DNA from: Clostridia bacterium
GTDB taxonomy: Bacteria; Bacillota; Clostridia; Oscillospirales; Acutalibacteraceae
Reading direction: 5' to 3'
DNA: 32,781 bases
Assembly (NCBI GenBank): GCA_017517665.1
Contig: JAFWYP010000016.1
Coordinates: 1-32,781 of the forward strand
Shown here: positions 1,530-26,261 of the stretch, piece by piece
How the letters are laid out: each line of letters opens with the position of its first letter
Numbering within the stretch: position 1 is the first letter of the stretch
Notes under the pieces: generated by a model
Seen by the model: the letters and a program-made list of their open reading frames with translations, nothing else
Database searches by the model: none
Told to the model about the DNA's origin: nothing
Translations under genes and position numbers: made by a program

Positions 1530-1720
1530 TGATAAGATACGGTTTGAAAAGTTGTACGCTGAGTAAATCAAAAGGGAAATCAGGTTCGAATCCTGAACAA
1601 CCGCCATTACTGTATTTGAAGCAGAGTTTATGCTTTATAAAGTCAGAACACCTGCCGTGTCTTTTTTAGGTTAAAACACAACTTTGGTGAGAAGAGTGCA
1701 ACCGATTATTCAAAAGCTGA
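1530..1720 (+). promoter_or_regulatory. cobalamin riboswitch (copy 1)
   Basis: The core shows the cobalamin-riboswitch landmarks: AAAAGGGAAATCAGG (1570-1584), the CCGCCATTACTGTA segment (1601-1614), and the B12 box AGTCAGAACACCTGCCG (1641-1657). GATACGG at 1536-1542 can pair with CCGTGTC at 1655-1661 as the closing helix. The expression platform continues to the intrinsic terminator at 1835-1875. By family knowledge, adenosylcobalamin or a related corrinoid binding switches off downstream expression. A second copy of this element lies on the other strand at 26275-26470. The aptamer 3' boundary is approximate. Confidence 0.92.
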
Positions 1721-1834
1721 TAAGGCATTTGAAATCGTGCATTCTTTTTTTGTTACCTAAAAAACACAGTATCCGCTGACTGTTTAATAGTAATAATAAT
1801 GCCGTGTTGCCAACCTTTTGATATGTCTGTTGTA

Positions 1835-1875
1835 CTCTTTCAACCTGTTTCCGGTTGAAAGAGTTTTGTTTTTTG
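1835..1875 (+). terminator. riboswitch-controlled intrinsic terminator
   Basis: An 11-bp perfect stem CTCTTTCAACC / GGTTGAAAGAG with a short loop is followed by TTTTGTTTTTTG. It sits between the cobalamin aptamer and the first gene, the expected place for transcriptional control. A cognate hairpin with related stem sequence lies in the second riboswitch leader. Confidence 0.88.
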
Positions 1876-1887
1876 TGAGGTGAAAAT

Positions 1888-2136
1888 GTGATAACTGAGG
1901 AAAAGAAGCAGTGGGCAATGGAGCAACTGCGAGAAAAAAACAAGGAGCTTGGCAGGCTCCCGAAAAAGGATGATTTTGATGTGGTGACTTTATCACGCAT
2001 CAAAGCCTTTTTGGGTCCGTGGCCGAGAGCTTTGGAGGCGGCAGGGTTGAAAGAACCGAAGATAATGCCCTCCAAAAACAAAAAGAAGAAAAAACAACAG
2101 ACAGCTTTCAAAAAGGAGACAAACGGCAATGACTAA
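1888..2136 (+). CDS. small homing-endonuclease-associated-repeat protein
   Basis: An 82-aa protein starting at GTG 1888 behind a GAGGTG site at 1877-1882. Residues 5-55 match the homing-endonuclease-associated repeat (HNH_repeat-type) pattern: a helix WAMEQLREKNKELGRLPKKD, a short DFD segment, then IKAFLGPWPRALEAAGL. The tail is very basic (Lys-rich, residues 57-76), fitting nucleic-acid contact. There is no nuclease domain, so this is a stand-alone repeat. It is the first gene after the riboswitch terminator and overlaps the next start by 8 nt, so it belongs to the cobalamin operon. The same gene, with a stop codon, sits at the same position in the second riboswitch operon. Its role is unknown; a small regulator or RNA/DNA-binding protein of the operon is possible. 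Confidence 0.8.
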   Translation: MITEEKKQWAMEQLREKNKELGRLPKKDDFDVVTLSRIKAFLGPWPRALEAAGLKEPKIMPSKNKKKKKQQTAFKKETNGND

Positions 2137-5100
2137 AAAAATTATCAGTATATTTATCATTCTTGCGATGATTTTAACCGCAATACCTTTAACAATATCT
2201 GCTAGCGAACCTGATACAGTTTATATTTCAATCAGCGATGACAGTCAGTTTGTAACCGACAGCAACGGCACTCCAATGGCATTTTATCCCGTGACCCTTG
2301 ATGAGCTTGCAGAGATTGATCTCAGCGATTATTATCTTGACGGATATGCATACGATGCAGACGGTGACAATGTTCCCGAGCTCACCGCACTTCACCTTTA
2401 TATTTATGTTCACGAAATAATACTCGGACTTGATTGGTCGGATGTTAACGTCAGCGGAAGTGCAGGAAGTATTTATTTTGCAGGCGGGCTTTTCGGTTTC
2501 TCCGATGAAAATCTCCGCTATGACCTTAATGGTGCTTATCCTGCAGTTGACGGTTGGGGTCTGACCGCAGACCGAATCGCTCTCAATGACGGTGACTTTC
2601 TGAATATTGCGCACTACACAAGCTGGGCGTTCTGGGGTGACAGCACAACAGGATTCCATTACTTTACCGATTCACAAGGAAATCTCAACCATACATATAA
2701 CACTTCCGTTAATGAAGAACTTGAACTTGGTTTGGTTCGCAGTTATTCAGATTGGGCAAACGGCGGAGTTGCGGCATTTGACCCTGAAACCGGTTATACC
2801 GTTTATTACGGAACCGCTTACGGTGTTCCCACAGGCAGCACAGCCACAGACGATAACGGACTTGTAAATATTTCGTTCCCCTCAGGAGGAACATGGTATG
2901 TATGGACTGACGGCGGTTACGGCATGGAAAATCCTACGGATATAGTTTCTGCACCTGCTTTTGCAACCGTAAAGGTAAAAGGTGAACCCGACCTTCTGTT
3001 CACAATTGACTTGACAGAACTTGATGACTCTGTTTATGAGGGCGGTATCATCAATTATAATTTCAGCGATGAAAGTGAGTTCTGGGACGGTAATGCCACA
3101 GCAGGAAAAACCACATCATATTCATTTGTAGCCGATGAGTATGACAATTATATTGTATATATCGATTATTATGTTGACAGCGACATAATGGGATGGAATG
3201 TCAACGGTGTCAATTATCTCATTGAAGATTCTTCCGCACATGAAGATTATTGGGATTTCGGTGACGATTCAGGTGTAGGCTACGGATTTGGCTACACGGA
3301 TGATAACAACAAAGCTTATGACGAATTCTATCTTATTCTCGGTCTTGAGAATTCTTACAACAAACCGGGAAGCTGGGTTATCAAACCGGTTCTTATGACC
3401 GAACAGATAATTGAAGTTATTATTGCTATTGATGATATCGGAGAGGTAACGGCAGAAAGCGGAGATTCTATCAACTTTGCCTGGGAGCTTTACAATGCAC
3501 TTACCGATTCAGAAAAAGAACTTGTTTTCAATTTTGCTGACCTTGAAGAAGCACAGGCTGTTTATGATGATTTGATGGATGCTCAGGCAGCTGCCGATGA
3601 AGTGGCGGCGAATGCTGTTGAAGAACTGATTTCAGCTATCGGCTCGGTAACAATTTTTAACTATAAGAATATTTATTCTGCCCGTGAAGCATACGATGCA
3701 CTCACCGATTCACAGAAAACGCTTGTTGAAAACTATTTCGCTCTCACCGATGCAGAAAATTCTTTCGCAACCTTGCTTGCAGATGCTTCGGATGCAGACC
3801 ACAGGGCAATTTATGAAGCAACGGGTACATACATAAATTCTCTCGGCACGCCTTTCGTTGGTTCTGTCGGCGGCGAATGGATGGTAATTGACCTTACCCG
3901 TTCAGGCTACGGTTGCCCCGATGGCTATTACAAAAATGTTGTTGAATATGTAAACAACAATATCAATGATAAAGAACAGCTCCACAGAGCAAAGTCAACA
4001 GATAATTCACGAGTTATTCTCGCTCTTACTTCGGCAGGTTATGATGTAACCGACGTTGACGGTCATAATCTTCTTATGGGTCTGACCGATATGACATATC
4101 TGAAAAAGCAGGGTATCAACGGTCCAATCTGGGCATTGATTGCATTTGACTGCCACGGCTATGAAATTCCCGTTAATGCAGATGCAACTGAGCAGGCTAC
4201 CCGTGAAAAGATTATTGCTTATATTCTTGAAAAACAGCTTGAAGACGGCGGTTGGGCACTTTCGGGCAAAGTCGCCGACCCCGATATGACGGGTATGGCA
4301 ATTCAATCACTTGCTCCGTATTACGAAACAAATGCCGAAGTCAAAGCAGCGATTGACAAAGCAATTATCTGCCTTTCTGAAAAACAGTATGATAATGGCG
4401 GATTCGGTTCAATCGACGGCATTTGCAGCGAATCCTGCGCACAGGTTATCGTTGCGTTAACTGCACTTGGTATTAATCCCGAAACTGATCCCCGATTTGC
4501 AAAGAACGGTGTTTCCGTTGTTGATGCAATGTGTCTGTTTGCTGTTGAAGGCGGCGGATTTGCACATATTCCCGATGCAGGCATAAACGGTATGGCAACA
4601 GAGCAGGCACAGTATGCTCTGGCATCATATTTCCGTTTCCTTGACGGCAAAACATCACTTTATGATATGAGCGATGTTGATATTTACACAAAAGATGAAA
4701 AAGCAGCCGATGCAGTTGAAGCAATGATTTCCGCAATCGGTACAGTTACCGCAGAAAGCAAGGACGCTATCGAAGAAGCAAGAGCTGCTTATGACGCTCT
4801 TACTGACGAACAGAAAGCTCTCGTTGAAAATTATGAAGTTCTCACATCTGCAGAATCAGCATTTGCAAAGATTGAAAATGACATCAAGGCTGCAGACGAT
4901 GTTGAAGCAATGATTTCCGCAATCGGCACAGTTACCGCAGAAAGCAAGGACGCTATCGAAGAAGCAAGAGCTGCTTATGATGCTCTTACAGACGAACAGA
5001 AAACGCTTGTTGAAAACTATGATACTCTCACATCTGCCGAAACAGCACTTGCAAAGATTGAAAATGATATCAAGGCTGCAGACGATGTTGAAGTAATGAT

Positions 5101-5347
5101 TTCCGCTATCGGTACAGTTACCGCAGAAAGTAAGGGTGCTATCGAAGAAGCAAGAGCTGCTTATGATGCACTTACAGACGAACAGAAAGCTCTCGTTGAA
5201 AATTATGAAATTCTAACATCTGCAGAAACAGAGTTTAATGAGCTGTCAACCGAAAAGGAACTCAGTCTCTTTGAAAAGATTATCAATTGGTTTATAAAAA
5301 TATTCAATCAGATAATCGCCTTTTTCAGAAGTATATTCTCATTCTGA
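2129..5347 (+). CDS. secreted transcobalamin-like alpha-barrel surface protein
   Basis: A 1072-aa exported protein with a signal peptide at residues 1-25. Residues about 55-165 look like a DUF4430-type domain (NLRYDLNGAYPAVDGWG, then LNDGDFLNIAHY). Residues 430-545 carry two diverged copies of a repeat that recurs as three near-identical 62-residue copies at 861-1036 (ALTDEQKALVENY type). Between them, about 555-840, lies an alpha6/alpha6 prenyltransferase/terpenoid-cyclase-type region with EKQLEDGGWA, DPDMTGMAIQSLAP and EKQYDNGGFG. This fold forms the alpha domain of animal intrinsic factor and transcobalamin. The C-terminus (1047-1072) is an aromatic, amphipathic helix that may sit at the membrane; no LPXTG motif is seen. 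Its place behind a cobalamin riboswitch and before an ECF transporter suggests extracellular corrinoid capture. The ligand is inferred. A carbohydrate- or wall-binding role for the N-terminal half remains possible. Confidence 0.82.
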   Translation: MTKKIISIFIILAMILTAIPLTISASEPDTVYISISDDSQFVTDSNGTPMAFYPVTLDELAEIDLSDYYLDGYAYDADGDNVPELTALHLYIYVHEIILGLDWSDVNVSGSAGSIYFAGGLFGFSDENLRYDLNGAYPAVDGWGLTADRIALNDGDFLNIAHYTSWAFWGDSTTGFHYFTDSQGNLNHTYNTSVNEELELGLVRSYSDWANGGVAAFDPETGYTVYYGTAYGVPTGSTATDDNGLVNISFPSGGTWYVWTDGGYGMENPTDIVSAPAFATVKVKGEPDLLFTIDLTELDDSVYEGGIINYNFSDESEFWDGNATAGKTTSYSFVADEYDNYIVYIDYYVDSDIMGWNVNGVNYLIEDSSAHEDYWDFGDDSGVGYGFGYTDDNNKAYDEFYLILGLENSYNKPGSWVIKPVLMTEQIIEVIIAIDDIGEVTAESGDSINFAWELYNALTDSEKELVFNFADLEEAQAVYDDLMDAQAAADEVAANAVEELISAIGSVTIFNYKNIYSAREAYDALTDSQKTLVENYFALTDAENSFATLLADASDADHRAIYEATGTYINSLGTPFVGSVGGEWMVIDLTRSGYGCPDGYYKNVVEYVNNNINDKEQLHRAKSTDNSRVILALTSAGYDVTDVDGHNLLMGLTDMTYLKKQGINGPIWALIAFDCHGYEIPVNADATEQATREKIIAYILEKQLEDGGWALSGKVADPDMTGMAIQSLAPYYETNAEVKAAIDKAIICLSEKQYDNGGFGSIDGICSESCAQVIVALTALGINPETDPRFAKNGVSVVDAMCLFAVEGGGFAHIPDAGINGMATEQAQYALASYFRFLDGKTSLYDMSDVDIYTKDEKAADAVEAMISAIGTVTAESKDAIEEARAAYDALTDEQKALVENYEVLTSAESAFAKIENDIKAADDVEAMISAIGTVTAESKDAIEEARAAYDALTDEQKTLVENYDTLTSAETALAKIENDIKAADDVEVMISAIGTVTAESKGAIEEARAAYDALTDEQKALVENYEILTSAETEFNELSTEKELSLFEKIINWFIKIFNQIIAFFRSIFSF
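4709..5236 (+). repeat. three 186-bp in-frame tandem repeats
   Basis: Copies start at 4709, 4895 and 5081 (the last truncated) and encode 62-residue alpha-helical units containing ISAIGTVTAES and AAYDALTDEQK. They are nearly identical at DNA level, which suggests recent expansion. The repeats probably form a spacer between the barrel domain and the C-terminal membrane-associated segment. Confidence 0.9.
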
Positions 5348-5356
5348 TTTTGACAC

Positions 5357-5388
5357 AGTCGGCTGTTGTTTAAATGCAGCAGCCGACT
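5357..5388 (+). other. intercistronic hairpin
   Basis: AGTCGGCTG at 5357-5365 pairs perfectly with CAGCCGACT at 5380-5388. No clear U run follows (TCCCTTCCTTT), so it is more likely an RNA-processing or stability element than a full terminator. It would separate the surface-protein message from the downstream anchor and transporter genes. Confidence 0.55.
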
Positions 5389-5448
5389 CCCTTCCTTTGA
5401 AAATAATTCGGTTTTTAAAACTTTTATATACCGTCAGGAGGCAATTTT

Positions 5449-6906
5449 ATGAAAAAGAAGAAAATAGCAAATATAGTGATGGTTGCTGTCATTATTGCTA
5501 TCGCAGTATCGGGAATCCTGGGTGTCGGTCATATCAAAGGCTGGTTTGACAAATCCGATGAAAGCACCGCAGTTCTTACGGATTTCCGTGGCATCATAAC
5601 TTTGCAGCGTGACGGAGTTGCCTATGCAACAACTGATAAAACTGTTCTCCGCAAAGGAGATAAAATTACTTGCGACCCCGGAGCAACTGTCAGAATTGCT
5701 TTGGGCGAAAACTATATTGCTCTCGGTCAGAATGCCGTTGCAGAAATCATAAATCCCGTTTCCGACGAGTTTGCCCTTAAAGTTAATGTAGGCGAAGCTT
5801 TTGTTAACACAAACAATTCTGTTTCACTTGAATTTGCAGATAAGCAGACTGAAATCGGCAATTCAGTTGCAACCCTGAGTGTCCGCAAAGGTGCACAAAG
5901 TATCAGCGTTTATCAAGGCTCTGTCGGTGAAGCAACCGAGGGTCAGATGCTTGAATGGATTGGTGATAAGGAATCCGTAAGAAATTTCTCTGTTAAAAGC
6001 CTCAATGATTTCAACATTTCACAAATACGAAAAGCCAACGGAACAAAAACTCTCGTTTTCTCAAATGATGATCTGGATAAACTCGAAAATGAACGATGGG
6101 AACAGATGCACGGTTCAAGCGAAACAACAACAGTCAGCAATTCAACAGAAACCGTAACATCAACTCATACCGAAAAAACAACTAAAAAAGAAACAACATC
6201 TTCAATCACGGAAAAGAAAGAGCCTACGGCAACAATTGCCGAAACAACCACAAAACCGACAACATCCAAAAAACAGACAACCACAGAAAAAACAACAAAA
6301 AAGAGACCGACCACAACAAGGCGTGATTACTCTGTTTACATAACCGAATCAACAACTGTTACTGAAACAACGTCTGAGACAAAAACTGAAAGAACAACCA
6401 GGCCCAAAGCTACAACTACAACCAAACACACAACCGCAAAACCGACCATAACCAAGCCGGTAACCACAACCAAACCTGTTGAAACAACAAAAGAAAAGCT
6501 TACCTGTACGATAACCATACGCTGTGACACAATTCTCAATAATATGGATAATCTCGACCCTGCAAAAGCACCGTATGTTCCCGATGACGGAGTCATTCTC
6601 AGGGAAGTAACGGTTGAATTTGAAGAAGGCGAAACCGTATTTGATGTTCTGAACAGAGTCTGCAGACAGTACAATATTCCGATTGAGTACAGTTGGACAC
6701 CTATGTATGACAGCTATTATATTGAAGGAATCAATAATCTTTATGAATTTGACTGCGGCAGCGAATCGGGATGGATGTATAAAGTTAACGGATGGTTCCC
6801 GAATTACGGCTGTTCAAGCTATTATTTAACGGGCGGTGAAAAAATCGTCTGGTGCTACACCTGTAACGGACTCGGTGAAGATGTCGGTGCAGAGCGATGG
6901 GAGTAA
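5449..6906 (+). CDS. membrane-anchored FecR-like / DUF4430 protein
   Basis: A 485-aa protein with an N-terminal membrane anchor (residues 6-28). Residues 45-170 resemble a FecR-type domain (RGIITLQRDG, LRKGDKITCDPGATVRI). Residues 222-350 are a Thr/Lys-rich linker, probably spanning the wall. Residues about 352-472 form a DUF4430 domain with ETVFDVLNRVC, SGWMYKVNGWFPNYG and GGEKIVWCYT. DUF4430 is the family that corresponds to the beta domain of intrinsic factor and transcobalamin. The start is preceded by CAGGAGG (5435-5441). The stop is one base before the EcfT start, so expression is coupled. With the preceding barrel protein, the two modules of a transcobalamin occur here on separate polypeptides. 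I infer a corrinoid-binding partner held at the membrane near the ECF transporter. Confidence 0.85.
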   Translation: MKKKKIANIVMVAVIIAIAVSGILGVGHIKGWFDKSDESTAVLTDFRGIITLQRDGVAYATTDKTVLRKGDKITCDPGATVRIALGENYIALGQNAVAEIINPVSDEFALKVNVGEAFVNTNNSVSLEFADKQTEIGNSVATLSVRKGAQSISVYQGSVGEATEGQMLEWIGDKESVRNFSVKSLNDFNISQIRKANGTKTLVFSNDDLDKLENERWEQMHGSSETTTVSNSTETVTSTHTEKTTKKETTSSITEKKEPTATIAETTTKPTTSKKQTTTEKTTKKRPTTTRRDYSVYITESTTVTETTSETKTERTTRPKATTTTKHTTAKPTITKPVTTTKPVETTKEKLTCTITIRCDTILNNMDNLDPAKAPYVPDDGVILREVTVEFEEGETVFDVLNRVCRQYNIPIEYSWTPMYDSYYIEGINNLYEFDCGSESGWMYKVNGWFPNYGCSSYYLTGGEKIVWCYTCNGLGEDVGAERWE

Positions 6907-6907
6907 T

Positions 6908-7798
6908 ATGAAACAAGATTCATTCTCAAAACTTCATCCTGCGGTGAATCTGCTGTTTTTTATCGGAGCAATCTGCTTCGGTGTTCTTCTGCAGCACCCC
7001 GTTTATCTGCTTGCAGGCATATTTGCAAGCGGAGTGTATTATTTTTTTCTGAATGGCAGAAAAGGGATGAAAAATATATTATTGATGATACCGCTTTTTA
7101 TATTCATCACACTTTTCAATCCGATAGTGAACACAAGAGGTGTAACGGTTCTTTTTACATATTTCGACAGACCCTACACCCTTGAAGCACTCATTTACGG
7201 TGTAGCGGTAGCGGCAACATTTGTGCTGATGCTTTTGTGGTTCGGGTGCTACGGAAAAGTGCTGACGGGCGATAAATTCACCTGCCTTTTCGGAAATCTT
7301 GCACCGTCATTGTCGTTGCTTCTTGTGATGGTGTTCCGTATGATACCGAATCTCTTGCAGAAAGCAAAACAGATTGTCGGTGCGAGAAGTTCAATCGGCA
7401 AAGGAACGGCAGAAAAATCATCAATAAAAGATAAACTGGGTTCGGGAATGACCGTTATCGGTGTTCTCACCTCGTGGGCACTTGAAGGCAGCATCACAAC
7501 AAGCGATTCAATGCGTTCAAGAGGTTACGGTACGTCAAAGCGGACAAGCTTTACGGTTTACAGAATGACAAATACTGATTGGATATTGACATTTGTTATG
7601 TTTATCTTGCTCGGAGTTGTTATCTTTTTTGCCGCAAACGGCGGAATGAATGCCGAATTTTTGCCCGAAAGAAACATCACACCGATAAACGGTTTTAATG
7701 TAATCGGGTTTATCGCATATCTCGGATATCTTATGATTCCGACAATACTGAACGTCAAGGAGGTTATACAATGGAACATTTCAAGATCGAAAATCTGA
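6908..7798 (+). CDS. ecfT: ECF transporter transmembrane protein EcfT (copy 1)
   Basis: A 296-aa EcfT/CbiQ-family integral membrane protein, the T component that links the S component to the ATPases. It begins SKLHPAVNLLFF and has about five hydrophobic segments. The two coupling motifs are visible: GARSSIGKG and SMRSRGYG, variants of the Ala-Arg-Gly motifs that dock on the ATPases. I chose ATG 6908, which directly follows the upstream stop and matches the start of the second copy; a longer frame from 6836 would lie inside the upstream gene. The end overlaps the ATPase gene by 28 nt. The protein is nearly the same as the one encoded at 25132-26022. Confidence 0.93.
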   Translation: MKQDSFSKLHPAVNLLFFIGAICFGVLLQHPVYLLAGIFASGVYYFFLNGRKGMKNILLMIPLFIFITLFNPIVNTRGVTVLFTYFDRPYTLEALIYGVAVAATFVLMLLWFGCYGKVLTGDKFTCLFGNLAPSLSLLLVMVFRMIPNLLQKAKQIVGARSSIGKGTAEKSSIKDKLGSGMTVIGVLTSWALEGSITTSDSMRSRGYGTSKRTSFTVYRMTNTDWILTFVMFILLGVVIFFAANGGMNAEFLPERNITPINGFNVIGFIAYLGYLMIPTILNVKEVIQWNISRSKI

Positions 7799-9432
7799 GT
7801 TTTTCGTATCCGACCTCAAAAGATAAAAAGTCACTTGATAATGTGTCACTCAGAATAGAAAAAGGCGAATATGTTGTTCTCTGCGGCAAATCGGGAAGCG
7901 GTAAAACAACTCTTCTCCGACATCTGAAAACCGTTCTCACTCCCCACGGAAAAAGAATGGGTGAAATATATTTCAACGGTGCAGCATTGAAAGATGTTGA
8001 TAACAGAACTCAATCTGCAAAAATCGGCTATGTAATGCAGAATCCCGATGACCAGATTGTGACGGATAAAGTATGGCACGAGCTTGCATTCGGTCTTGAA
8101 AGTCTCGGTTGTGACCAGAAAACCATGCGTTCACGTGTTGCAGAAATGGCTTGTTACTTCGGTATTCAGGATTGGTTTCACAGAGATGTTGCAGTTCTTT
8201 CGGGCGGTCAGAAGCAGATTCTCAACCTTGCATCAATTATGGCAATGCAGCCCGAAGTTCTTATTCTCGATGAACCCACAAGTCAGCTTGACCCCATTGC
8301 AGCATCGGATTTTCTTAACACAGTGCGAAAAATCAACACTGAACTCGGAACAACCGTTATCATAACAGAGCACCGCCTTGAGGATATTTTCCCCTATGCC
8401 GACAGAGCAATTGTTATGGATTCGGGCAGAATCATCGCTGATGACACACCGAGAAATATCGGCAAGCTTCTTTACGAACAAAACAATCCGATGTTCACGG
8501 CTATGCCCACTCCCGTTCGTGTTTTCTATAATGCAGACGGCGACGGTGATTGCCCCCTAACAGTCAGAGAAGGCAGAGCGTGGCTGAATAAAGAGTTTGA
8601 AATCAAACCTCAAATCGCCGAAATTCCTTGCAAAAATATCGATGATGACATCGAATATCCTGCATTGTCGCTCAAAGAATTATGGTTCAGATATGAAAAA
8701 GACACCCCCGATATTCTCAGAGGTGTCAGCCTTGAAATTCCTGCGAGCAGTATAACCGCAATAGTCGGCGGCAACGGTGCAGGTAAATCCACAACATTAA
8801 AGGCGATTTGCGGAATCTGCAAACCTTACAGAGGCAAAATCAAGGTTTTCGGCAAACCCGTCAATAAATTCAAATCGGGTGAACTTTTCAGAAACTGCAT
8901 TTCAATGCTTCCGCAGGACCCGAAAAGTCTGTTTGTGAAAAACAAAGTGATTGACGATCTTGCGGAAATGACAAAGAAAAAAAACAAGATAACCGAAATT
9001 GCAGAAACTTGCCAAATTACAGAGCTTCTTGAAAATCATCCCTATGATTTATCGGGCGGTGAACAGCAGAGAGCTGCACTTGCAAAGGTTCTTCTCACCG
9101 AACCGAAAATACTTCTTCTTGATGAACCCACAAAAGGTATGGACAGTTTCTTTAAAGAAACTTTTGCCTCAATTCTTCAGAAATTAAAAGAGCAAGGCAT
9201 AACAATTCTGATGGTATCTCACGATGTTGAATTCTGCGCAAAATATGCAGACAGAGTGAGTATGTTCTTTGACGGTCAGATACTTACAACCGAAACTCCG
9301 CAGAACTTCTTCGGTAGCAACAGTTTCTACACAACAGCGGCAAACCGTATGAGCAAACACGTTTTCAAAAATGCCGTTACCGCAGAAAATGTTGTTGAGC
9401 TTTACCGCAAAAACAAGGGAGGAACGGTATGA
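7771..9432 (+). CDS. ecfA: fused double ECF ATPase (copy 1)
   Basis: A 553-aa protein with two complete ABC ATPase domains, combining the EcfA1 and EcfA2 roles in one chain. Domain 1: Walker A GKSGSGKT (39-46), Q-loop Q90, signature LSGGQ (143-147), Walker B LILDEPT (164-170), switch His201. Domain 2: Walker A GGNGAGKST (333-341), Q-loop Q382, signature LSGGE (427-431), Walker B LLLDEPT (448-454), His484. All catalytic motifs are intact in both halves. ATP hydrolysis drives substrate uptake through EcfT and the S component. AAGGAGG at 7758-7764 marks the start inside the end of ecfT. The stop overlaps the S-component start (ATGA). Fused ATPases of this kind occur in dedicated (group I) ECF transporters. 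Confidence 0.95.
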   Translation: MEHFKIENLSFSYPTSKDKKSLDNVSLRIEKGEYVVLCGKSGSGKTTLLRHLKTVLTPHGKRMGEIYFNGAALKDVDNRTQSAKIGYVMQNPDDQIVTDKVWHELAFGLESLGCDQKTMRSRVAEMACYFGIQDWFHRDVAVLSGGQKQILNLASIMAMQPEVLILDEPTSQLDPIAASDFLNTVRKINTELGTTVIITEHRLEDIFPYADRAIVMDSGRIIADDTPRNIGKLLYEQNNPMFTAMPTPVRVFYNADGDGDCPLTVREGRAWLNKEFEIKPQIAEIPCKNIDDDIEYPALSLKELWFRYEKDTPDILRGVSLEIPASSITAIVGGNGAGKSTTLKAICGICKPYRGKIKVFGKPVNKFKSGELFRNCISMLPQDPKSLFVKNKVIDDLAEMTKKKNKITEIAETCQITELLENHPYDLSGGEQQRAALAKVLLTEPKILLLDEPTKGMDSFFKETFASILQKLKEQGITILMVSHDVEFCAKYADRVSMFFDGQILTTETPQNFFGSNSFYTTAANRMSKHVFKNAVTAENVVELYRKNKGGTV

Positions 9433-10133
9433 AAAAATCAAACGTTGCAATGCTGATTGTGTTTCTTGCTTTAATTCCTTTAACTTTGTTTCTCGGAGAT
9501 AAACTTCCCGGAAAAGGCTACTACATAACGGGTGTTCTCATCATAATTGAGCTTGCCGTTCCGTTTTTTATGATGTTTGAAAAAAGAAAACCGCAGGCAA
9601 GAGAGCTTGTTGTATTGGCGGTTATGATTGCTCTTGCGGTTATCGGCAGAGTTGCAATTCCCATTCCGCATTTCAAAGCGGCATTTGCGATAATTATGCT
9701 TACGGGCATTGCCTTCGGTCCCGAAGCGGGATTTATCGTCGGCGCAATAACCGCATTCGCAAGCAATTTTTTTTACGGTCAGGGTGCATATATGCCGTGG
9801 CAGATGATGGCATACGGTGCGGGCGGAATGCTTGCAGGTTTTGTATTTATCAAGAATAAAATCCCGAAAAAGCCGTGGATTATGGCAATATTCGGATTCC
9901 TTGCAGTTGTTATCTGGATAGGACCTCTGCTTGACACTTCACATATCTTCATTATGATGCCTGAAATCAGTTTTGCAACAATAACGGCTTCTCTTGCATC
10001 AGGTTTCCCCGTGAATGTAAGTCAAGGGCTTTGCACCGCACTTATGATGATTGTTTTCGGAAAACCGCTTCTTGAAAAACTCGACAGAGTGAAGCAGAAA
10101 TACGGAATGCTGGAGGATGAAAATGGGATTTGA
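9429..10133 (+). CDS. ECF S component, predicted cobalamin/corrinoid (copy 1)
   Basis: A 234-aa hydrophobic protein with about six to seven membrane segments, typical of the substrate-binding S component. Recognisable stretches are LAVIGRVAIPIPHFKAAFAI, TGIAFGPEAGFIVGA and FYGQGAYMPWQMMAYG. It is translationally coupled to the ATPase gene through an ATGA overlap and preceded by GGGAGG. The cobalamin riboswitch and the capture proteins upstream point to a corrinoid substrate, as in CbrT-type S components; specificity is inferred, not shown. The copy at 22809-23501 differs at only about a dozen residues, mostly at the C-terminus, where this one ends GMLEDENGI and the other GMFAN. Confidence 0.88.
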   Translation: MKKSNVAMLIVFLALIPLTLFLGDKLPGKGYYITGVLIIIELAVPFFMMFEKRKPQARELVVLAVMIALAVIGRVAIPIPHFKAAFAIIMLTGIAFGPEAGFIVGAITAFASNFFYGQGAYMPWQMMAYGAGGMLAGFVFIKNKIPKKPWIMAIFGFLAVVIWIGPLLDTSHIFIMMPEISFATITASLASGFPVNVSQGLCTALMMIVFGKPLLEKLDRVKQKYGMLEDENGI

Positions 10134-11010
10134 GCTTTGTCATCCTGCGGTTAACCTGATTTATTTTGTATCGGTATTGTACGGTATGCTCTGTTTCAGG
10201 CATCCCGTTTTTCTCGCCATCTCGTTTCTGAGTGCTGTTGCATACAGCATTAAACGAAACGGTATGAAAGCGGTTATTTTTGATGCTGTGTTGTTGCCGT
10301 TAACAAGTGCGTTTGCTCTTTATTATAGTACGTACAATCACTTCGGAGTTACCGTTATTGAGCAGAATCTTATCGGCAACAGCATCACGCTTGAATCGCT
10401 GATTTACGGCGCGGTGATCGGTCTTACGGTTTCGGGCGCAATGATATGGTTTTCCTGCATTTATTCCGTATTCACATCGGATAAGGTAGTTTATCTTTTC
10501 GGTAAAGCAAGTCCCAAGCTTTCGCTTTTCCTTTCTGTTCTTCTGAGAATGGTGCCGAGAATTAAATACGAGGCAAAGAAAATAAACACCGCACAGCGAG
10601 GAATCGGCAGAGGTATAAATCAAGGGAATATTTTTTCACGTATTCGAAACTGCATTCGTATTTTTTCAATAATGATAACATGGATAATCGATTCTCTTTC
10701 TCTGCAATCCGAATCAATGCAGAGCCGCGGCAGTCTGCTTCGGGGCAGAAAAGCGTTTTCAATTTATCGTTTTGATAACCGTGACCGTGCTTATGTTATT
10801 GCCATGTTTGCAAATATAACGCTGACGGTAATGGGCGTTATGCTCAAACAAACCGAAATAGTCTATGACCCGAAAATAATTATCACTCCCATAACTTCTG
10901 TGTCTTATCTTTTCTACATAGGTTATGCTGTTCTTTGTCTTATGCCCCTTGGTCTGGAACTCTACACGGAATACAGATTCAGAAAAGCAAGAAAAATAAT
11001 TACCAGATAA
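10123..11010 (+). CDS. second, divergent EcfT-family protein
   Basis: A 295-aa membrane protein of the EcfT/CbiQ family. It begins GFELCHPAVNLIYFVSVLYG, parallel to the N-terminus of the first EcfT, and carries both coupling motifs as TAQRGIGRG and SMQSRGSLLRG. Overall it is much diverged from the EcfT at 6908. The start chosen is ATG 10123, six bases after GGAGG (10112-10116); an ATG at 10117 abuts that site. It overlaps the S-component gene by 11 nt and is the last gene before a strong terminator. No second ATPase or S gene follows, and the duplicate transporter on the other strand lacks this gene. It may pair the shared ATPase with another S component, such as the short one at 11054-11593. 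Confidence 0.85.
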   Translation: MGFELCHPAVNLIYFVSVLYGMLCFRHPVFLAISFLSAVAYSIKRNGMKAVIFDAVLLPLTSAFALYYSTYNHFGVTVIEQNLIGNSITLESLIYGAVIGLTVSGAMIWFSCIYSVFTSDKVVYLFGKASPKLSLFLSVLLRMVPRIKYEAKKINTAQRGIGRGINQGNIFSRIRNCIRIFSIMITWIIDSLSLQSESMQSRGSLLRGRKAFSIYRFDNRDRAYVIAMFANITLTVMGVMLKQTEIVYDPKIIITPITSVSYLFYIGYAVLCLMPLGLELYTEYRFRKARKIITR

Positions 11011-11053: not shown

Positions 11054-11593
11054 TTATAATCTCTTGTTAATCAGCTTTGTTTTTTCCAGAAGCATAACAA
11101 CAACGGGAATGAGAATTATCTGAAGAATTATTCCGGGCAATGCGTTTGTTACTGCACCTGCCCAGAATGCGGCAATTCCGAATTTTGATGCGTCAAATCC
11201 CATACAAGCAAACTGAACAGCGCCCCAAACAAGACGACCGATTATCATTGAAATGATAAGAGTTGCATATATGTAGCCTTTCTTTTTCGGAAACGCACGG
11301 TAGAGAATACCGCTTAAAAGTCCGTATGTTGCAAGTTCAAATGCCATTGCAACCGCAACGGGGAAAAGAGGCGGCATTCCGAGAGTCAGTGAGCGAAGCA
11401 GCGGTGCCGCAAAGCCAACAATCAATCCCCACGGTGCACCGCAGACAAATCCGCAAATGATAATGGGTATATGCATAGGGCAAAGCATTGAACCTATCTG
11501 AGGCACCTGACCTGTCAGAAACGGCATAACGTAAGCGAGAGCAAGAAACATTGCCGCAAGAGCAAGATTAACCAAATTGTTTTGTTTTTTCAT
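11054..11593 (-). CDS. short ECF S component (copy 1)
   Basis: A 179-aa membrane protein with about six hydrophobic segments, of the ECF_trnsprt S-component type: MLCPMHIPIIICGFVCGAPW, APLLRSLTLGMPPLFP, AMAFELATYGLLSGILYR. It has no ATPase or T gene of its own in its transcription unit. By family knowledge such proteins use a shared EcfAT module, and two T components are encoded next door. The substrate is unknown. Two copies, each beside a cobalamin-regulated ECF operon, hint at a corrinoid-related compound such as a lower-ligand precursor, but this is speculation. It is preceded by AAAGGA and by a structured leader. The copy at 26601 has closely similar sequence. Confidence 0.85.
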   Translation of the reverse strand: MKKQNNLVNLALAAMFLALAYVMPFLTGQVPQIGSMLCPMHIPIIICGFVCGAPWGLIVGFAAPLLRSLTLGMPPLFPVAVAMAFELATYGLLSGILYRAFPKKKGYIYATLIISMIIGRLVWGAVQFACMGFDASKFGIAAFWAGAVTNALPGIILQIILIPVVVMLLEKTKLINKRL

Positions 11594-15139: not shown

Positions 15140-17923
15140 ATGGCAATTTTTAAATGTAAAATGTGCGGCGGTGATCTTGAAGTATCCGAAGAAATCAAAA
15201 TAATTGAATGCGATTATTGCGGAACAAATCAGACCGTTCCGACTGCTGATAACGAAAAGAAAATTAATCTCTTTAACCGCGCAAACAGACTCCGTATGTC
15301 AAACGAGTTTGATAAGGCGTCCGGCATTTACGAAAGTATAATCGTGGATTTTCCTGAAGAAGCTGAGGCTTATTGGGGACTATGCCTTTGCAAATACGGT
15401 ATTGAATACGTTGACGACCCTGCAACCGCAAAGAAAATCCCCACATGCCACCGTTCCAGTTTTGAAAGTATTATGGATGACAGCGATTTTGAGCAGGTAA
15501 TGGAAAACGCTGATTCCGTTGCACGGAAAGTTTACCGTGAGGAAGCAAAGGTGATTGAAGAAATCCGCAAAGGCATAATCGAGGTTTCCGCAAACGAAAA
15601 GCCTTACGATATTTTTATCTGTTATAAAGAAACCGCAGAAAACGGCGACCGCACCCTTGACTCTGTTATTGCGCAGGACGTTTACAATGAACTGACAGAC
15701 AGGGGTTACCGAGTGTTTTTCTCGCGTATAACTCTCGAAAATAAGCTCGGTGTTGAATATGAACCCTATATTTTTGCGGCACTTAACTCTGCGAAAATAA
15801 TGCTTGTTTTCGGCACAGACTATGAATATTTCAATGCGGTATGGGTCAAAAACGAGTGGAGCCGTTATCTTAAATTAATGGCAAACGATAAAACGAAGCA
15901 TCTCATCCCTTGTTACAAGGGTGTTGATGCTTACGATATACCCAAGGAATTCGCAAAACTTCAGGCGCAGGATATGGGCAAGGTCGGCGCGATTCAGGAT
16001 TTGCTTCGCGGCATTGAAAAAATAATACCCAAAGAAAACAAATCCGCCGCAGAAACAGCCATAAAACAGCAATCATCTGCCAACCCTTCGGCAGAATCGT
16101 ATCTGAAGCGCGCATTCATTTTCCTCGAAGACGGAAATTTCAGATCCGCCGATGAATACTGCGAAAAAGTGCTGGATATTGACCCCGAAAATGCACAAGG
16201 TTATCTCGGCAAATTATTGGCAGAGCTTCGGGTAAGAAAGCAGGAAGATCTGAAAGATTTAAGCGAATCTTTTGAAGAAAAAAACAATTACCTGAAAGTC
16301 AAGCGCTATGGCGATACCTCTCTGGTTGCAACACTTGAAAGCTATATTGCTCTCATAAAAAACCGCATTGAGCAGACACGAATCAAAGCTGAAAATCTAC
16401 GCTCCCTCATTCCGTCGATGCAAAAGTTACAAAACCTTATATGCGCCGGACGCAAACAAACCGTAGGTTTTGTAACAGACGGTACAGTTGTTGCGGTTGG
16501 TAATAACGGATACGGCGAATGCAATGTCCGCGAATGGAGTGATACTATTGCCGTTTCGTCAGGATTCCGCCATCACACTGTAAGTCTGAAAGCTGACGGT
16601 ACAGTTGTTGCTGTTGGTAATAACGAAAACGGCGAGTGTAATGTCGGCGGTTGGAAAGATATTGTTGCAATTTCGGCAGGAGATCAGCATACCGTAGGCC
16701 TTAAAAAAGACGGCACTGTTGTTGCTGTTGGTAATAACAATTTCAGACAATGCAATGTTAAAGATTGGAAAGATATTGTTGCAATCTCGGCGGGAGGCTT
16801 TCACACCGTAGGTCTTAAAAAAGACGGTACGGTTGTTGCTGTCGGCAGATGTTCTGATGACCAATGCAATGTCCGCGAATGGAAAGATATTGTTGCAATC
16901 TCGGCGGGAGGCTGGCACACCGTAGGCCTTAAATCTGACGGCACTGTTGTTGTGGCCGGTAATAACGATAAAGCCAAATGCAATGTAAGAGACTGGAGCG
17001 ATATCATTGCCGTTTCGGCGGGAAGCTGGCACACCGCAGGTCTGAAAAAAGACGGCACTGTCGTTGCAGTTGGTGATAACGATGACGGTCAATGTGATAT
17101 TGACGGTTGGCGTTTATTTTCATCTGTTGATACAATTGATCAAGAACGCGAAAAAGCAAAAAAAGAAAAGGCAATCCAAATATCATCAGAAGACAAAAAA
17201 AGACTTTCTCCTGTTCAGAAAATGATTCCGATTGCGATGAACCTTATAGCTGCAGGGGCAGATCACACTGCCTGTGTAAAAACAGATGGCACAGTTGTCG
17301 CAACAGAATATAAAAATAAACCTCATTATTATAGCGGCCAATGTGACGTCAGCGGTTGGAAAGATGTTGTTGCCGTTTCGGCAGGAAGCTGGCACACTGC
17401 AGCTCTTAAATTCGACGGCACGGTCGTTGCAACAGAATACAAGGGAGAGCCTCAACAGTATAACGGTCAATGCGACGTCGGCAGTTGGAAAGATATTGTT
17501 GCCGTTTCGGCAGGAATATGTCACACCGTAGGTCTCAAATCAGACGGCACGGTCATTGCAACAGAATATATTGCTCCGCCTGATAATGAAGATGATTATT
17601 ATATCGGTCAATGCGACGTCAGCAGTTGGAAAGATATTATTGCCATCGCGGCAAGAAACGTGCATACCGTGGGTCTTAAATCAGACGGAACAGCACTCTG
17701 GGTCGGTTATGACAATCTGTATCTTGAAAGGTGGACTGTTGACGACTGGAGCGATGTTGTATCCGTTTCAACAGGCAGCTATCATACCGTAGGTCTTAAA
17801 TCCGACGGTACGGTTGTTGCGGTCGGTTTAAACGAATACGGTGAGTGTGGTGTTGACAACTGGAAAAATATGATGCTTCCCAATCAGAAACCCATGACGG
17901 TTCAACCGAAAAATCCAAAATAA
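15140..17923 (+). CDS. zinc-ribbon / TIR / RCC1-like repeat protein
   Basis: A 927-aa cytoplasmic protein. Residues 1-30 form a zinc ribbon (Cys6, Cys9, Cys24, Cys27). Residues about 43-90 look like a TPR unit. Residues about 154-295 are a TIR domain: YDIFICYKE, DVYNELTDRGYRVFFSR, LGVEYEPYIFAALNSAKIML and VWVKNEWSRYL; an acidic residue in the LGVEYEPYI segment could be the NADase glutamate, unproven. Residues 319-365 hold a second TPR-like unit. Residues about 435-915 hold about eleven RCC1-like units (TVGLKKDGTVVAVGNN, WKDIVAISAG), split 6 + 5 by a linker near 690-720. The zinc-ribbon/TPR/TIR core is common in Clostridia. TIR domains in bacteria often make or degrade NAD-derived signals in defence, but signalling or protein-scaffold roles are also possible. 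TAGGAG precedes the ATG, and a terminator follows. Confidence 0.88.
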   Translation: MAIFKCKMCGGDLEVSEEIKIIECDYCGTNQTVPTADNEKKINLFNRANRLRMSNEFDKASGIYESIIVDFPEEAEAYWGLCLCKYGIEYVDDPATAKKIPTCHRSSFESIMDDSDFEQVMENADSVARKVYREEAKVIEEIRKGIIEVSANEKPYDIFICYKETAENGDRTLDSVIAQDVYNELTDRGYRVFFSRITLENKLGVEYEPYIFAALNSAKIMLVFGTDYEYFNAVWVKNEWSRYLKLMANDKTKHLIPCYKGVDAYDIPKEFAKLQAQDMGKVGAIQDLLRGIEKIIPKENKSAAETAIKQQSSANPSAESYLKRAFIFLEDGNFRSADEYCEKVLDIDPENAQGYLGKLLAELRVRKQEDLKDLSESFEEKNNYLKVKRYGDTSLVATLESYIALIKNRIEQTRIKAENLRSLIPSMQKLQNLICAGRKQTVGFVTDGTVVAVGNNGYGECNVREWSDTIAVSSGFRHHTVSLKADGTVVAVGNNENGECNVGGWKDIVAISAGDQHTVGLKKDGTVVAVGNNNFRQCNVKDWKDIVAISAGGFHTVGLKKDGTVVAVGRCSDDQCNVREWKDIVAISAGGWHTVGLKSDGTVVVAGNNDKAKCNVRDWSDIIAVSAGSWHTAGLKKDGTVVAVGDNDDGQCDIDGWRLFSSVDTIDQEREKAKKEKAIQISSEDKKRLSPVQKMIPIAMNLIAAGADHTACVKTDGTVVATEYKNKPHYYSGQCDVSGWKDVVAVSAGSWHTAALKFDGTVVATEYKGEPQQYNGQCDVGSWKDIVAVSAGICHTVGLKSDGTVIATEYIAPPDNEDDYYIGQCDVSSWKDIIAIAARNVHTVGLKSDGTALWVGYDNLYLERWTVDDWSDVVSVSTGSYHTVGLKSDGTVVAVGLNEYGECGVDNWKNMMLPNQKPMTVQPKNPK
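16437..17870 (+). repeat. RCC1-like coding tandem repeats (~123-150 bp period)
   Basis: About eleven imperfect in-frame units. The first block, up to about 17110, has a period near 123 bp; the second, from about 17255, has longer loops that contain ATEY. Near-identical DNA stretches between units (for example GGAAAGATATTGTTGC) suggest duplication and exchange. They probably build one or two beta-propellers. Confidence 0.85.
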
Positions 17924-18659: not shown

Positions 18660-19316
18660 ATGGAAAAACTCCTCATCATCGCAGCAATCGTATTTTTCGC
18701 AGCAGTAATCATCAAAAATCTCATCGGCAAAAAAGACCCCGATAATGGTAACGGCAAAGCAAATAATTCCGAAGTCATCAACATTAAAATCCCCAAAAAA
18801 TTCGATCTCAAAAACGGTGGCAGCGAAAACAGAGCCAGACGCGACAATGGAAAAACTATCAGATTCGCAGAATGGACCGTATACGTTCTCGATAAGGAAG
18901 GCAACATCATCAGCGAGCAAGCTATGAGTGCCACATCCGAAAGACCCTTCTCAATCGGCTATGACAAGGATTGTGACCTCGTTGTTAATTCCAACTATGT
19001 CACCGGTGTCCACCTCAAGATTGGTAAAGATGATCAGGGCTATTTCGCAAAAGACAGCAGTCTCAACGGAACATTTGTCAATGACAAAATGTATAACAAT
19101 GAGTCATTCTCCCTTGAAGAAGGTCTTGTGTATGTAGCGGACGTTCCTGTTTATTTCAAGAAAAACAGCGACAACCGTCCCAACGTTATCCCCAAGTTTG
19201 TTAAGGACAATGTTGAAGAAACAAGCAAAACCAAAAAATTTGACGGATTCAACAATACAAGATCCTGGAAAAAGGATGCCGGAGAGTCCGGCGCAAATCG
19301 TCCGTTCACACGCTGA
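18660..19316 (+). CDS. membrane-anchored FHA-domain protein 1
   Basis: A 218-aa protein with an N-terminal membrane helix (residues 3-22) and a cytoplasmic FHA domain at about 96-166: SIGYDKDCDLVV, VTGVHLKI (the usual Ser-x-x-His is Thr-Gly-Val-His) and SSLNGTFVNDK. FHA domains bind phosphothreonine peptides. It is the first gene of a four-gene cell-wall operon and ends 13 bp before the SEDS gene, with GAGGAGGCA between. A TATAAT at 18601-18606 may be its -10 box. Similar FHA proteins sit beside rodA/pbpA genes in Actinobacteria with the PknB kinase, but no kinase or phosphatase is in this window. Confidence 0.88.
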   Translation: MEKLLIIAAIVFFAAVIIKNLIGKKDPDNGNGKANNSEVINIKIPKKFDLKNGGSENRARRDNGKTIRFAEWTVYVLDKEGNIISEQAMSATSERPFSIGYDKDCDLVVNSNYVTGVHLKIGKDDQGYFAKDSSLNGTFVNDKMYNNESFSLEEGLVYVADVPVYFKKNSDNRPNVIPKFVKDNVEETSKTKKFDGFNNTRSWKKDAGESGANRPFTR

Positions 19317-19329
19317 GGAGGCATTTTAA

Positions 19330-20724
19330 ATGGACAAAATCAAAAAACTTTTTTCAGGATTCAAAATCCCTGAAATCCCCCTTGATTTCCGCCGCAACGG
19401 TCTTGCGGCAGGACTCACCGTTCACATTGTTGCGTGCGTCCTTCTCTCGCTCTTTGCATTTGCAAAGGGCGTGGAAAGCACGGATTTTATATTGCCCATA
19501 GTTCTCATAGGTGCATTTTTCCTTTTATATGCCCAATGTGTCGGCTGTAACATGATTATGGTTCTCTGTATTTCGCTTTTAATGAATGTGGGTACGGTTA
19601 CCCTGGTTGTTCTTCAGCCCGAAAAGGTTTCCGGAGTTGTTGATGAACTCTGGCTGGCAACAGTGCTGGCAATCATTGTCACTGCGGTGTTTTCCTTTAT
19701 TGAAAAAAGGTTCAAAACTGACAGCAACAAGCACGCCTTTTTCCTCATGGGAGCCATATGGATTGTAACTGTAATTCTGACTGTTTTGCTTCGTCTTGGC
19801 GATGGCACAAACGGCACGTATGCATGGCTTTATTTCGGAGATCATCAGCTCCAGGTTACGTCTCTTTTCGTTCCTGCGTTTGTACTCTATGAGACAGTTC
19901 TTTATGTATCGCCTCTCAAAAACAAACACATATTCAGCCTGATTTACATGTTCACTCTTGCAGGTTCACTGTTCATCTGCAATGAACTTGGTACGCTTAT
20001 CATCATATTCTTCCTCTGGATTATCAATATGCTTGTTTTCGGAGAACTTGCAAACTCTCTCAAGGTTATAGGCATTTTCGGCGGTCTCGGAGGAATAGCT
20101 ATAGGCATTTGCGCAATTGCCAAAAGCAGGGTTAATCACCTTACAGAACTCGGTGAAACAGCCGGAAGTTTAACCATGTTCCTCAGTCAGGTTTTCAGTA
20201 AGATATCAAAGAGAATCACTGAATGGATAAATATCAAGGAGCTTCCGGAGTATGAACAGTCGGCAAAAGCCTGGCGCGGTATTTTCCGCGGAGGACTTCT
20301 CGGCACAAACAATGAAGTTGCTATCGGTCATGAGATTTATGACTATACCTTTGCGGCAATACTTCAGAGAATGGGTTTCCTGTTCGGACTCATAATTGTA
20401 TTTTTATATGTTCTCTTCTTCTTTACCGCATTGAAAAAACTCTCCGATAAAGGATACAGAACCATTTCAACATTCAGCAATATTTTTGCTGTAGGTTCGT
20501 TAATAGCTTTCTTTGTAAGCTCAATCATTCCCATTTTCACAAACACCGCATTTTTCCCGCTGATCGGTGTTTCGCTGCCTTTAATCAGTTCAGGTGTAAG
20601 TTCTGGCCTGATTTCCCGTTTCTTTATCTTCGTTGTTATTCTCAGCTGTAAAGAACGATTGCTGTTTAAACCGATTAATTTCAGCAAATCCAGGAAGAAG
20701 ACAAATGAGCCTCTTGTAAGATAA
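19330..20724 (+). CDS. SEDS-family glycosyltransferase (FtsW/RodA/SpoVE-like)
   Basis: A 464-aa polytopic membrane protein with about ten hydrophobic segments, of the SEDS family that polymerises lipid II into glycan strands. Family-like features are YAWLYFGDHQLQVTSLFVPA, a large outward loop with AKAWRGIFRGGLLGTNNEV, and the C-terminal GVSLPLISSGVSSGLISRFF, which resembles the conserved G-(I/V)-(T/S)-LP-x-S-(Y/S)-GG-(S/T) end of FtsW and RodA. The extra N-terminal segments and divergent loops set it apart from canonical RodA or FtsW, so it may be an accessory pair with the adjacent PBP. It is flanked by FHA and PBP genes with short spacers, consistent with one operon. Confidence 0.9.
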   Translation: MDKIKKLFSGFKIPEIPLDFRRNGLAAGLTVHIVACVLLSLFAFAKGVESTDFILPIVLIGAFFLLYAQCVGCNMIMVLCISLLMNVGTVTLVVLQPEKVSGVVDELWLATVLAIIVTAVFSFIEKRFKTDSNKHAFFLMGAIWIVTVILTVLLRLGDGTNGTYAWLYFGDHQLQVTSLFVPAFVLYETVLYVSPLKNKHIFSLIYMFTLAGSLFICNELGTLIIIFFLWIINMLVFGELANSLKVIGIFGGLGGIAIGICAIAKSRVNHLTELGETAGSLTMFLSQVFSKISKRITEWINIKELPEYEQSAKAWRGIFRGGLLGTNNEVAIGHEIYDYTFAAILQRMGFLFGLIIVFLYVLFFFTALKKLSDKGYRTISTFSNIFAVGSLIAFFVSSIIPIFTNTAFFPLIGVSLPLISSGVSSGLISRFFIFVVILSCKERLLFKPINFSKSRKKTNEPLVR

Positions 20725-20742
20725 AATGAAAGGTAGATCGCT

Positions 20743-22092: not shown

Positions 22093-22107
22093 AAGGTAAG
22101 TTGAATT

Positions 22108-22629
22108 TTGAAATTTGATACTACGGAAACAATTCTGCTTCTCATAATGATTCTGTTCGGAATTGTTGCGGTGTATGTAACAAAAAGAAAACCCGAAGCA
22201 AAGAAACCCGAAGCGAAAGTTGAAGCAAAAACGGTTAAAATTGCAGAGGGATGGACCGTTTTCAACATGGACAAGGAAGGGAACTGCGTTAACTCCGCAT
22301 CCATTCCTCAAACCGAAGACTCTTTCATAATCGGCACTTCTCCCGATTCTGATTTCAGAATACTGAATAAGCTTGTCAGCAGAAGACACTTGATAGTTGT
22401 AAATACGGATAACGGTATGATGATTTCCGATAACAATTCATCCTATTCAACTTTTATCAACGGAAACAGAATAATCGACAGTCCTGTTGAAAACGGTCAG
22501 GTAGTCTGGCTGGCAGATTCTCCGGTTATTTTCATAGCTCCGGGCACATATACCGATGAAAAAAAGCTTAAAGCTCTGACAATACAAAACATCAGGGATT
22601 ACGGTGTTCCCGTGATTACCGAAAAGTAA
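22108..22629 (+). CDS. membrane-anchored FHA-domain protein 2
   Basis: A 173-aa protein with a membrane helix at residues 7-25, a short Lys/Glu/Ala/Pro-rich linker, and an FHA domain at about 73-143 with the canonical elements FIIGTSPDSD, SRRH (91-94) and STFINGN. Unlike the first FHA protein it retains the Ser-Arg-x-His motif. The start is a TTG at 22108; AAAGG lies 11 bases upstream and no ATG is available nearby. It ends the operon before a terminator at 22719. Two FHA proteins bracketing a SEDS/PBP pair suggest control of wall synthesis by threonine phosphorylation from a kinase encoded elsewhere. Confidence 0.88.
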   Translation: MKFDTTETILLLIMILFGIVAVYVTKRKPEAKKPEAKVEAKTVKIAEGWTVFNMDKEGNCVNSASIPQTEDSFIIGTSPDSDFRILNKLVSRRHLIVVNTDNGMMISDNNSSYSTFINGNRIIDSPVENGQVVWLADSPVIFIAPGTYTDEKKLKALTIQNIRDYGVPVITEK

Positions 22630-26022: not shown

Positions 26023-26032
26023 ATTTTCACCG

Positions 26033-26224
26033 TTACTTTTTCTTTGATTCTTTAAGACCTGCCGCTTAAAGTGCTCTCGGCCACGGACCCAAAAAGGCTT
26101 TTATTCGTGACATTGTTGCTACATCAAAATCAGTCTTTTCAGGCAATCTCCCAAGCTCTTCGCTTTTCTGACGAAGGATTTCGATTGCCCATTCTTTCTT
26201 TTTATTACTTATCATTGTTTTCAT
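26033..26224 (-). pseudogene. interrupted copy of the small repeat protein
   Basis: The frame from ATG 26224 (or ATG 26215) encodes KKKEWAIEILRQKSEELGRL and IKAFLGPWPRAL, closely matching the protein at 1888-2136. It then meets TAA at 26066-26068 where copy 1 has a Glu codon. After the stop the frame continues with AAGLKESKKK and a second stop at 26033. The product would be about 50 aa and lack the end of the repeat and most of the basic tail. It could still be a functional short form, but decay is the simpler reading. It occupies the same place between riboswitch terminator and transporter as in copy 1. Confidence 0.8.
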
Positions 26225-26230
26225 CAAATA

Positions 26231-26261
26231 AAAAACTCTTTCAACACAGTTGGCTGAAAGA
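26231..26261 (-). terminator. terminator of the second cobalamin riboswitch
   Basis: On the minus strand CTCTTTCAGCCA pairs with TGTTGAAAGAG (imperfect near the loop), followed by TTTTTTATTT. The stem shares CTCTTTCA/TGAAAGAG with the copy 1 terminator at 1835-1863. Confidence 0.8.

Follow-up and report, generated by a model that had tools for sequence, protein, structure and literature searches.

A cobalamin-riboswitch operon of a Clostridia bacterium that probably encodes transcobalamin-like corrinoid capture for an energy-coupling factor importer

The stretch of DNA analysed here (the window; 32,781 nucleotides) is one entire contig, JAFWYP010000016.1 of assembly GCA_017517665.1, from a Clostridia bacterium of the family Acutalibacteraceae. 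Near its start lies an operon that joins a cobalamin riboswitch to two genes for putative surface proteins and to a transporter of the energy-coupling factor (ECF) type. A preliminary description, made from the sequence alone, had taken this operon for an extracellular corrinoid capture system in which the two halves of a transcobalamin are divided between separate proteins. The operon holds the following features:

1480-1508, + strand: sigma-70 promoter match (TTGACA-17-TATAAT, 12/12)
1523-1673, + strand: cobalamin riboswitch aptamer, RF00174 (45.6 bits against an Rfam cut-off of 31.5; E 1.5e-8)
1834-1864, + strand: terminator-like hairpin followed by a T run, possibly the expression platform
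1888-2136, + strand: open reading frame (ORF) of 82 amino acids with a homing-endonuclease-associated repeat (PF18780), its 3′ end overlapping the start of the next ORF
2129-5347, + strand: secreted protein of 1072 amino acids, from the ORF list, with a hydrophobic export-type N-terminus (residues 1-28)
2249-2971, + strand: N-terminal module of that protein (residues 41-281), probably DUF4430-like by profile overlap
3869-4669, + strand: alpha/alpha-toroid domain of the same protein (residues 581-847, by profile limits), the putative alpha half
5449-6906, + strand: protein of 485 amino acids with an N-terminal hydrophobic anchor (residues 3-33), a Thr/Ser-rich linker and a C-terminal DUF4430
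6628-6861, + strand: DUF4430 domain of that protein (PF14478; residues 394-471; E 8.2e-19), the putative beta half
6908-7798, + strand: ECF T component, with a probable ATG start at 6908 (ORF listed from GTG 6836)
7771-9432, + strand: ECF double ATPase, a single chain with both ABC domains (domain search)
9429-10133, + strand: ECF S component, CbrT-like (phmmer and profile)
10117-11010, + strand: second T component, 29% identical to the first

The two ends of the operon proved to be as first described. The riboswitch aptamer, which begins 15 bases after the end of the promoter match, scores above the gathering cut-off and lies upstream of the operon's genes, which makes the operon part of a cobalamin riboswitch regulon. 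ORFs resembling the 82-amino-acid leader ORF were found at 20 of 117 other loci searched (e.g., L102, L104, L106, L153 and L169). At the downstream end the ECF transporter is complete, with T component, double ATPase, S component and second T component. The first T component probably starts at ATG 6908 rather than at the upstream GTG, because its duplicate elsewhere in the window starts there. The closest solved relative of the S component is 6fnp_A (phmmer E 2.9e-6; profile E 6.2e-19), followed in the profile search by RibU (E 2.5e-6). The entry 6FNP is given as ECF-CbrT, a vitamin B12 transporter (PMC5997447), and the 182-residue chain A would, from its length and the match, be CbrT itself. 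With an S component homologous to CbrT, a T component and two ATPase domains, the transporter is of the CbrT type.

It is very improbable that the operon's substrate is a metal, such as cobalt, and not a corrinoid. Cobalt supply is also described as being under B12 riboswitches (PMC7689651), both T components match CbiQ weakly, just below the Pfam cut-off, and the solved DUF4430 protein 3u7z is labelled as putative metal binding. Against these points stand the CbrT-like S component and the lack of any CbiD match in the host genome (88.67% complete), so that the cell would gain little from cobalt for making corrins. The same genome has nine B12-binding-domain matches. A scavenger would be expected to show this combination, although the genome's incompleteness has to be borne in mind.

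Between the riboswitch and the transporter lie the two genes on which the interpretation turns. The barrel that had been proposed for residues ~555-840 of the 1072-amino-acid protein corresponds to the toroid, whose profile limits run a few residues beyond it on the C-terminal side; helical-type repeats of one kind flank the toroid on both sides. As a single sequence, the toroid gives weak matches to Pfam SQHop_cyclase and Prenyltrans, below cut-off. A profile of 30 toroid sequences, however, matches squalene-hopene cyclase structures at E 7.4e-23, and by that profile the domain belongs to the toroid superfamily. A phmmer search with the whole protein found cyclases and no B12-binding structure; an exported cyclase inside a B12 operon seems unlikely. 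The 485-amino-acid protein ends in DUF4430, as had been claimed. The mean column identity of this domain is 64% (26 sequences, from Ruminococcus to Paenibacillus), which is strikingly conserved, and that of the toroid is 37% in a different sample of 30 toroids. The N-terminal region of the 485-amino-acid protein (window 5536-6130) has no Pfam match; by eye it resembles a FecR-type beta domain.

The arrangement is conserved. The family was surveyed in 150 genomes: 38 have toroid relatives, 94 have the riboswitch and 112 have DUF4430, which is present in every one of the 38 genomes with a toroid, as compared with 112 of 150 overall. Of the toroid matches listed in these genomes, 26 of 50 have RF00174 on their own strand no more than 10 kb upstream, and none has it within 10 kb downstream on that strand or on the other strand (0 of 50 in each case). 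The corresponding figures for DUF4430, which rest on 150 listed matches from among at least 150, are 67 of 150 upstream on the same strand, none downstream and 2 on the other strand. Chance co-location of the riboswitch with toroid or DUF4430 genes is rejected by these controls of strand and direction. Tried as a riboswitch detector, a regular expression for the B12 box recovered 13 of the 26 sites already known and was dropped.

At least 584 relatives came out of a scan of species genomes; the best 80 fall in 77 loci, including loci of Ruminococcus bromii, Paenibacillus, Lutispora, Tissierella, Clostridium and Parablautia. In 57 of the 77, the genes for toroid, DUF4430, T and S lie on one strand, and in 49 a separate DUF4430 gene starts within 1 kb downstream of the toroid gene. 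By simple hydropathy, a hydrophobic N-terminus is seen in 67 of the 72 toroid proteins that begin within their locus; among the short separate proteins with one C-terminal DUF4430, 50 of 59 have an N-terminal hydrophobic anchor and 8 of 59 are lipoprotein-like. At E 0.001, a toroid match was found in 75 of 299 genomes of the phylum, many of these matches being weak and perhaps belonging to other toroids.

The gene pair recurs beside cobalamin riboswitches in other genomes, as the preliminary description required. Sixty-seven of the 77 loci were scanned with cmscan, counting sites above the cut-off within 6.5 kb upstream of the toroid gene and on its strand, and 42 of the 67 have such a riboswitch. 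L165 was left uncounted, its confirmed riboswitch lying 6516 bases upstream of the toroid gene and so beyond the limit. Eight of the ten loci outside the cmscan set (L133, L138, L139, L140, L154, L159, L162 and L169, not re-scanned; the other two are L177 and L178) have an upstream match of 25.6-30.5 bits, below the cut-off, in a genome-wide covariance-model search. The coordinate mapping of hits from that search misplaced some of them, as at L134 (seen by eye) and L170 (where cmscan finds none). A core-motif check left 35 loci, and of the 27 above the Rfam cut-off that were re-scanned, 26 were confirmed and L175 was not; these 26 and 16 other loci make up the 42 counted above. The operon is one example of a conserved system, probably a bacterial transcobalamin-like capture stage for an ECF importer.

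The best evidence that the two surface domains act jointly comes from natural fusions. In seven compact chains of 549-680 amino acids, a hydrophobic N-terminus or signal is followed by the toroid, two adjacent hydrophobic segments and DUF4430, in all seven. Read as a membrane hairpin, the two segments argue that toroid and DUF4430 would both be outside the membrane, and the fusions thus suggest that the halves work together outside one membrane. A toroid followed by DUF4430 in one long chain occurs in 13 further rows from 12 loci (e.g., Paenibacillus; hairpin not checked), mostly accompanied by a separate DUF4430 protein.

There are also loci in which DUF4430 stands beside a different protein, or with no toroid matched nearby. 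In 13 of 20 hand-picked loci (L185-L204), a single-domain DUF4430 lipoprotein is directly followed by an S component gene, at -58 to +10 bases from the lipoprotein stop; RF00174 is listed for 11 of the 13, and no toroid or T component was matched in these stretches of 2.5-4.5 kb. L063 and L064 resemble such minimal units. At three loci (L065:6629-9391, L076:1444-4197 and L077:1659-3338), a PQQ/beta-propeller-like protein stands between the riboswitch and DUF4430-T-A-S, in the toroid gene's place; its position is reminiscent of the BtuG propeller. One could therefore suppose that DUF4430 alone binds the corrinoid for the S component, the lipoprotein and S forming a complete small unit, and that the toroid has another task, such as holding the cell wall, mucin or another corrinoid-binding protein, or acting as a side enzyme. 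The human transcobalamin beta domain, which is reported to bind cobalamin alone (PMC5599065), lends itself to the same view. We regard this alternative as rather unlikely, given that DUF4430 accompanies the toroid in every toroid genome of the family, that the two are joined in the seven compact chains and in the 13 longer rows, and that a separate DUF4430 gene follows the toroid gene so closely at most of the 77 loci.

The comparison with animal proteins bears on what the joint action might be. InterPro presumably names DUF4430 as transcobalamin-like. Animal B12 carriers are described as an alpha-helix cylinder joined to a beta domain (PMC11107200), and a paper on fish places DUF4430 at the C-terminus, as in TCN proteins (PMC4350170). 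A profile built from single-domain DUF4430 lipoproteins (A8; 22 rows, after two of the 24 matches had been removed because the wrong segment had been chosen) matches transcobalamin-1 (4kki) at E 0.0039 in row 2 of the search, and intrinsic factor (3kq4/2pmv) weakly, at E about 1, in rows 7 and 8; in each case the match is in the beta domain. The same profile matches 3u7z over its whole length (E 2.7e-23). RF00174 is listed for the stretches that yielded 15 of its 22 source rows. The domain in the window and the single-domain lipoproteins are both PF14478 matches, and it is through this Pfam family, not directly, that the window's DUF4430 is homologous to the C-terminus of transcobalamin. The order of the animal carriers, with alpha and beta in one chain and alpha first, is found in the seven fused relatives; in the window the two parts are encoded by two genes.

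A number of observations weigh against reading the pair as a transcobalamin-like binder. On the side of the beta domain, four TIP-alpha chains (E 0.11-0.14) outrank intrinsic factor in the A8 search, and 7 of the 22 rows behind A8 come from stretches without a listed RF00174. A profile of the operon-type DUF4430 (A5) gave no transcobalamin match in the PDB, and a profile of the fused chains (A3) found cyclases, a plant cyclase-type synthase and two designed proteins there, again with no transcobalamin. The alignment of A8 with A5 by hhalign is weak (E 0.0034, probability 10%), which is why the link must run through PF14478. On the side of the alpha domain, neither the 60 best PDB rows nor Pfam contains a match of the toroid to intrinsic factor, transcobalamin or PF01122, and as far as its sequence can be read, the toroid shows no closer kinship to transcobalamin than to terpene cyclases. 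The association with riboswitches is also incomplete. Downstream of the 108 riboswitch rows (5 of which score below the Rfam cut-off), DUF4430 is found in 65, the toroid in 23, both in 18 and neither in 38, and 25 of the 67 loci scanned with cmscan, including the fused L153, have no upstream riboswitch within the counting limit. At 9 of the 25 the first toroid ORF runs off the edge of the locus, and L142 has a divergent site only.

A final point of this kind concerns the 1072-amino-acid protein, which probably carries a divergent DUF4430-like domain of its own at the N-terminus. The module at residues 41-281 is common to other proteins of such loci, as seen with an iterated profile, and in four proteins the same segment is matched by both this module profile and the DUF4430 profile (E below 0.01 each). 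The protein would then not be a bare alpha half, which the split model had not foreseen. It might even be a complete binder, the 485-amino-acid protein being a second-stage receptor that passes the corrinoid to the S component; many relatives, in which an evident DUF4430 precedes the toroid within one chain and a separate DUF4430 protein is present too, are compatible with such an arrangement. We consider it quite unlikely, however. The alignment of the module with DUF4430 by hhalign reaches only E 5.6e-4 and a probability of 30%, which is suggestive at most; the DUF4430 profile run on the 1072-amino-acid protein gave no significant match, and drift of the module profile during iteration is possible. 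In L082, L083, L084 and L087, moreover, the N-terminal module is a separate protein beside a fused toroid-DUF4430 chain.

Two parts of the preliminary description thus stand in modified form. The two putative halves are indeed on separate proteins here, with fused relatives elsewhere, but the toroid protein probably has a DUF4430-like domain as well. The likeness to transcobalamin holds for DUF4430 by one profile of three, the other two failing to reach transcobalamin, and it does not extend to the toroid, which the sequence comparisons do not link to the animal alpha domain.

With these points weighed, we favour the view, as the probable one, that the operon is a corrinoid scavenging system in which toroid and DUF4430 form a transcobalamin-like binder serving a CbrT-like importer. 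In such a system the 1072-amino-acid protein would be exported and present its toroid at the surface as the alpha half, and the 485-amino-acid protein would hold DUF4430, the beta half, outside the membrane on its long linker. A corrinoid arriving at the cell surface may be bound first by one half and enclosed when the second shuts on it; from this loaded complex, kept by its tether next to the ECF complex, it may then be handed to the S component, through which the T and ATPase subunits would drive import; the riboswitch would shut the operon off in response to its own product. The corrinoid as ligand, the closure and the hand-over are the parts of this scheme that we infer. A precedent for closure is found in human transcobalamin, whose separately made alpha and beta domains are reported to assemble only upon addition of the ligand (PMC5599065), and by analogy two halves that are naturally separate on one cell surface are plausible.

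More tentatively, we suggest that a Gram-positive transcobalamin-like receptor, split or hairpin-fused, is an extracellular partner of ECF transporters, and that the animal carriers are its single-chain relatives. According to PMC7689651, ECF transporters have no separate substrate-binding protein. Cobamide capture by Gram-positive gut bacteria is poorly known; a paper on Bacteroidetes calls it less known for Firmicutes (PMC8941943). A search of an open-access literature collection found no bacterial transcobalamin-like pair. If the suggestion is correct, the system would be a widespread candidate receptor through which ECF transporters gain a stage of capture at the surface, and would include bacterial relatives of intrinsic factor and transcobalamin.

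The window also contains a second riboswitch operon, which spans 22809-26479 in inverted orientation relative to the first:

26339-26479, - strand: second cobalamin riboswitch (RF00174), leading an operon without the two surface genes
22809-26022, - strand: second set of T, ATPase and S genes (95, 92 and 95% protein identity to the first set)

The leader of the second operon (26245-26038) matches 1854-2065, and 12 bases on, its T region matches the first operon from 6905 onward; the tail of the small ORF and both surface genes are missing. Its copy of the small ORF (26069-26263, - strand) has an internal stop. The DNA matches on either side of the missing stretch suggest that the surface pair behaves as a cassette, with a bare importer kept beside it. 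The preliminary description mentioned neither this operon nor the small ORF at 1888-2136 nor the DUF4430-like N-terminus of the 1072-amino-acid protein.

Two further ECF S components, 83% identical, lie one beside each riboswitch operon, at 11054-11593 (- strand) and 26541-27143 (+ strand). The host genome has a second DUF4430 protein, with a single domain (G000:C22:65045-65236; L079:7028-7552); it has no riboswitch nearby, because both listed riboswitches lie in the window. Other genes of the window encode a 927-amino-acid protein with a TIR domain and RCC1 repeats (15140-17923), FHA-type proteins around FtsW/RodA-like and penicillin-binding-protein-like genes (18660-22629, by eye), and a 1596-amino-acid protein with streptococcal pilin isopeptide-linkage domains and a VWA-like region (27684-32474).

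Finally, the operon can be compared with known systems. It shares with ECF-CbrT of Lactobacillus delbrueckii a homologous S component accompanied by T and ATPases, and differs in that extracellular proteins are co-encoded, the ATPases are in one chain and there are two T genes. With BtuG and BtuH of Bacteroides it has in common riboswitch-controlled corrinoid capture at the surface, if our reading is correct, and in three relatives a propeller-like protein replaces the toroid; there is, however, no outer membrane, and the 1072-amino-acid protein matches cyclases rather than any B12-binding structure. The DUF4430 protein RUMGNA_00854 (3u7z) resembles the single-domain lipoproteins, whose profile it matches, but is a stand-alone domain labelled as putative metal binding. 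The parallels to transcobalamin, intrinsic factor and haptocorrin are a helical cylinder with a beta domain, a beta domain that is matched by a bacterial DUF4430 profile, and, in the fused relatives, the order of toroid and DUF4430, which corresponds to alpha and then beta. Unlike the animal carriers, the toroid is not recognisably of the animal alpha family and its protein probably has an extra DUF4430-like domain; the halves are on two chains with signals for export to the surface, and they would feed an importer rather than an endocytic receptor.

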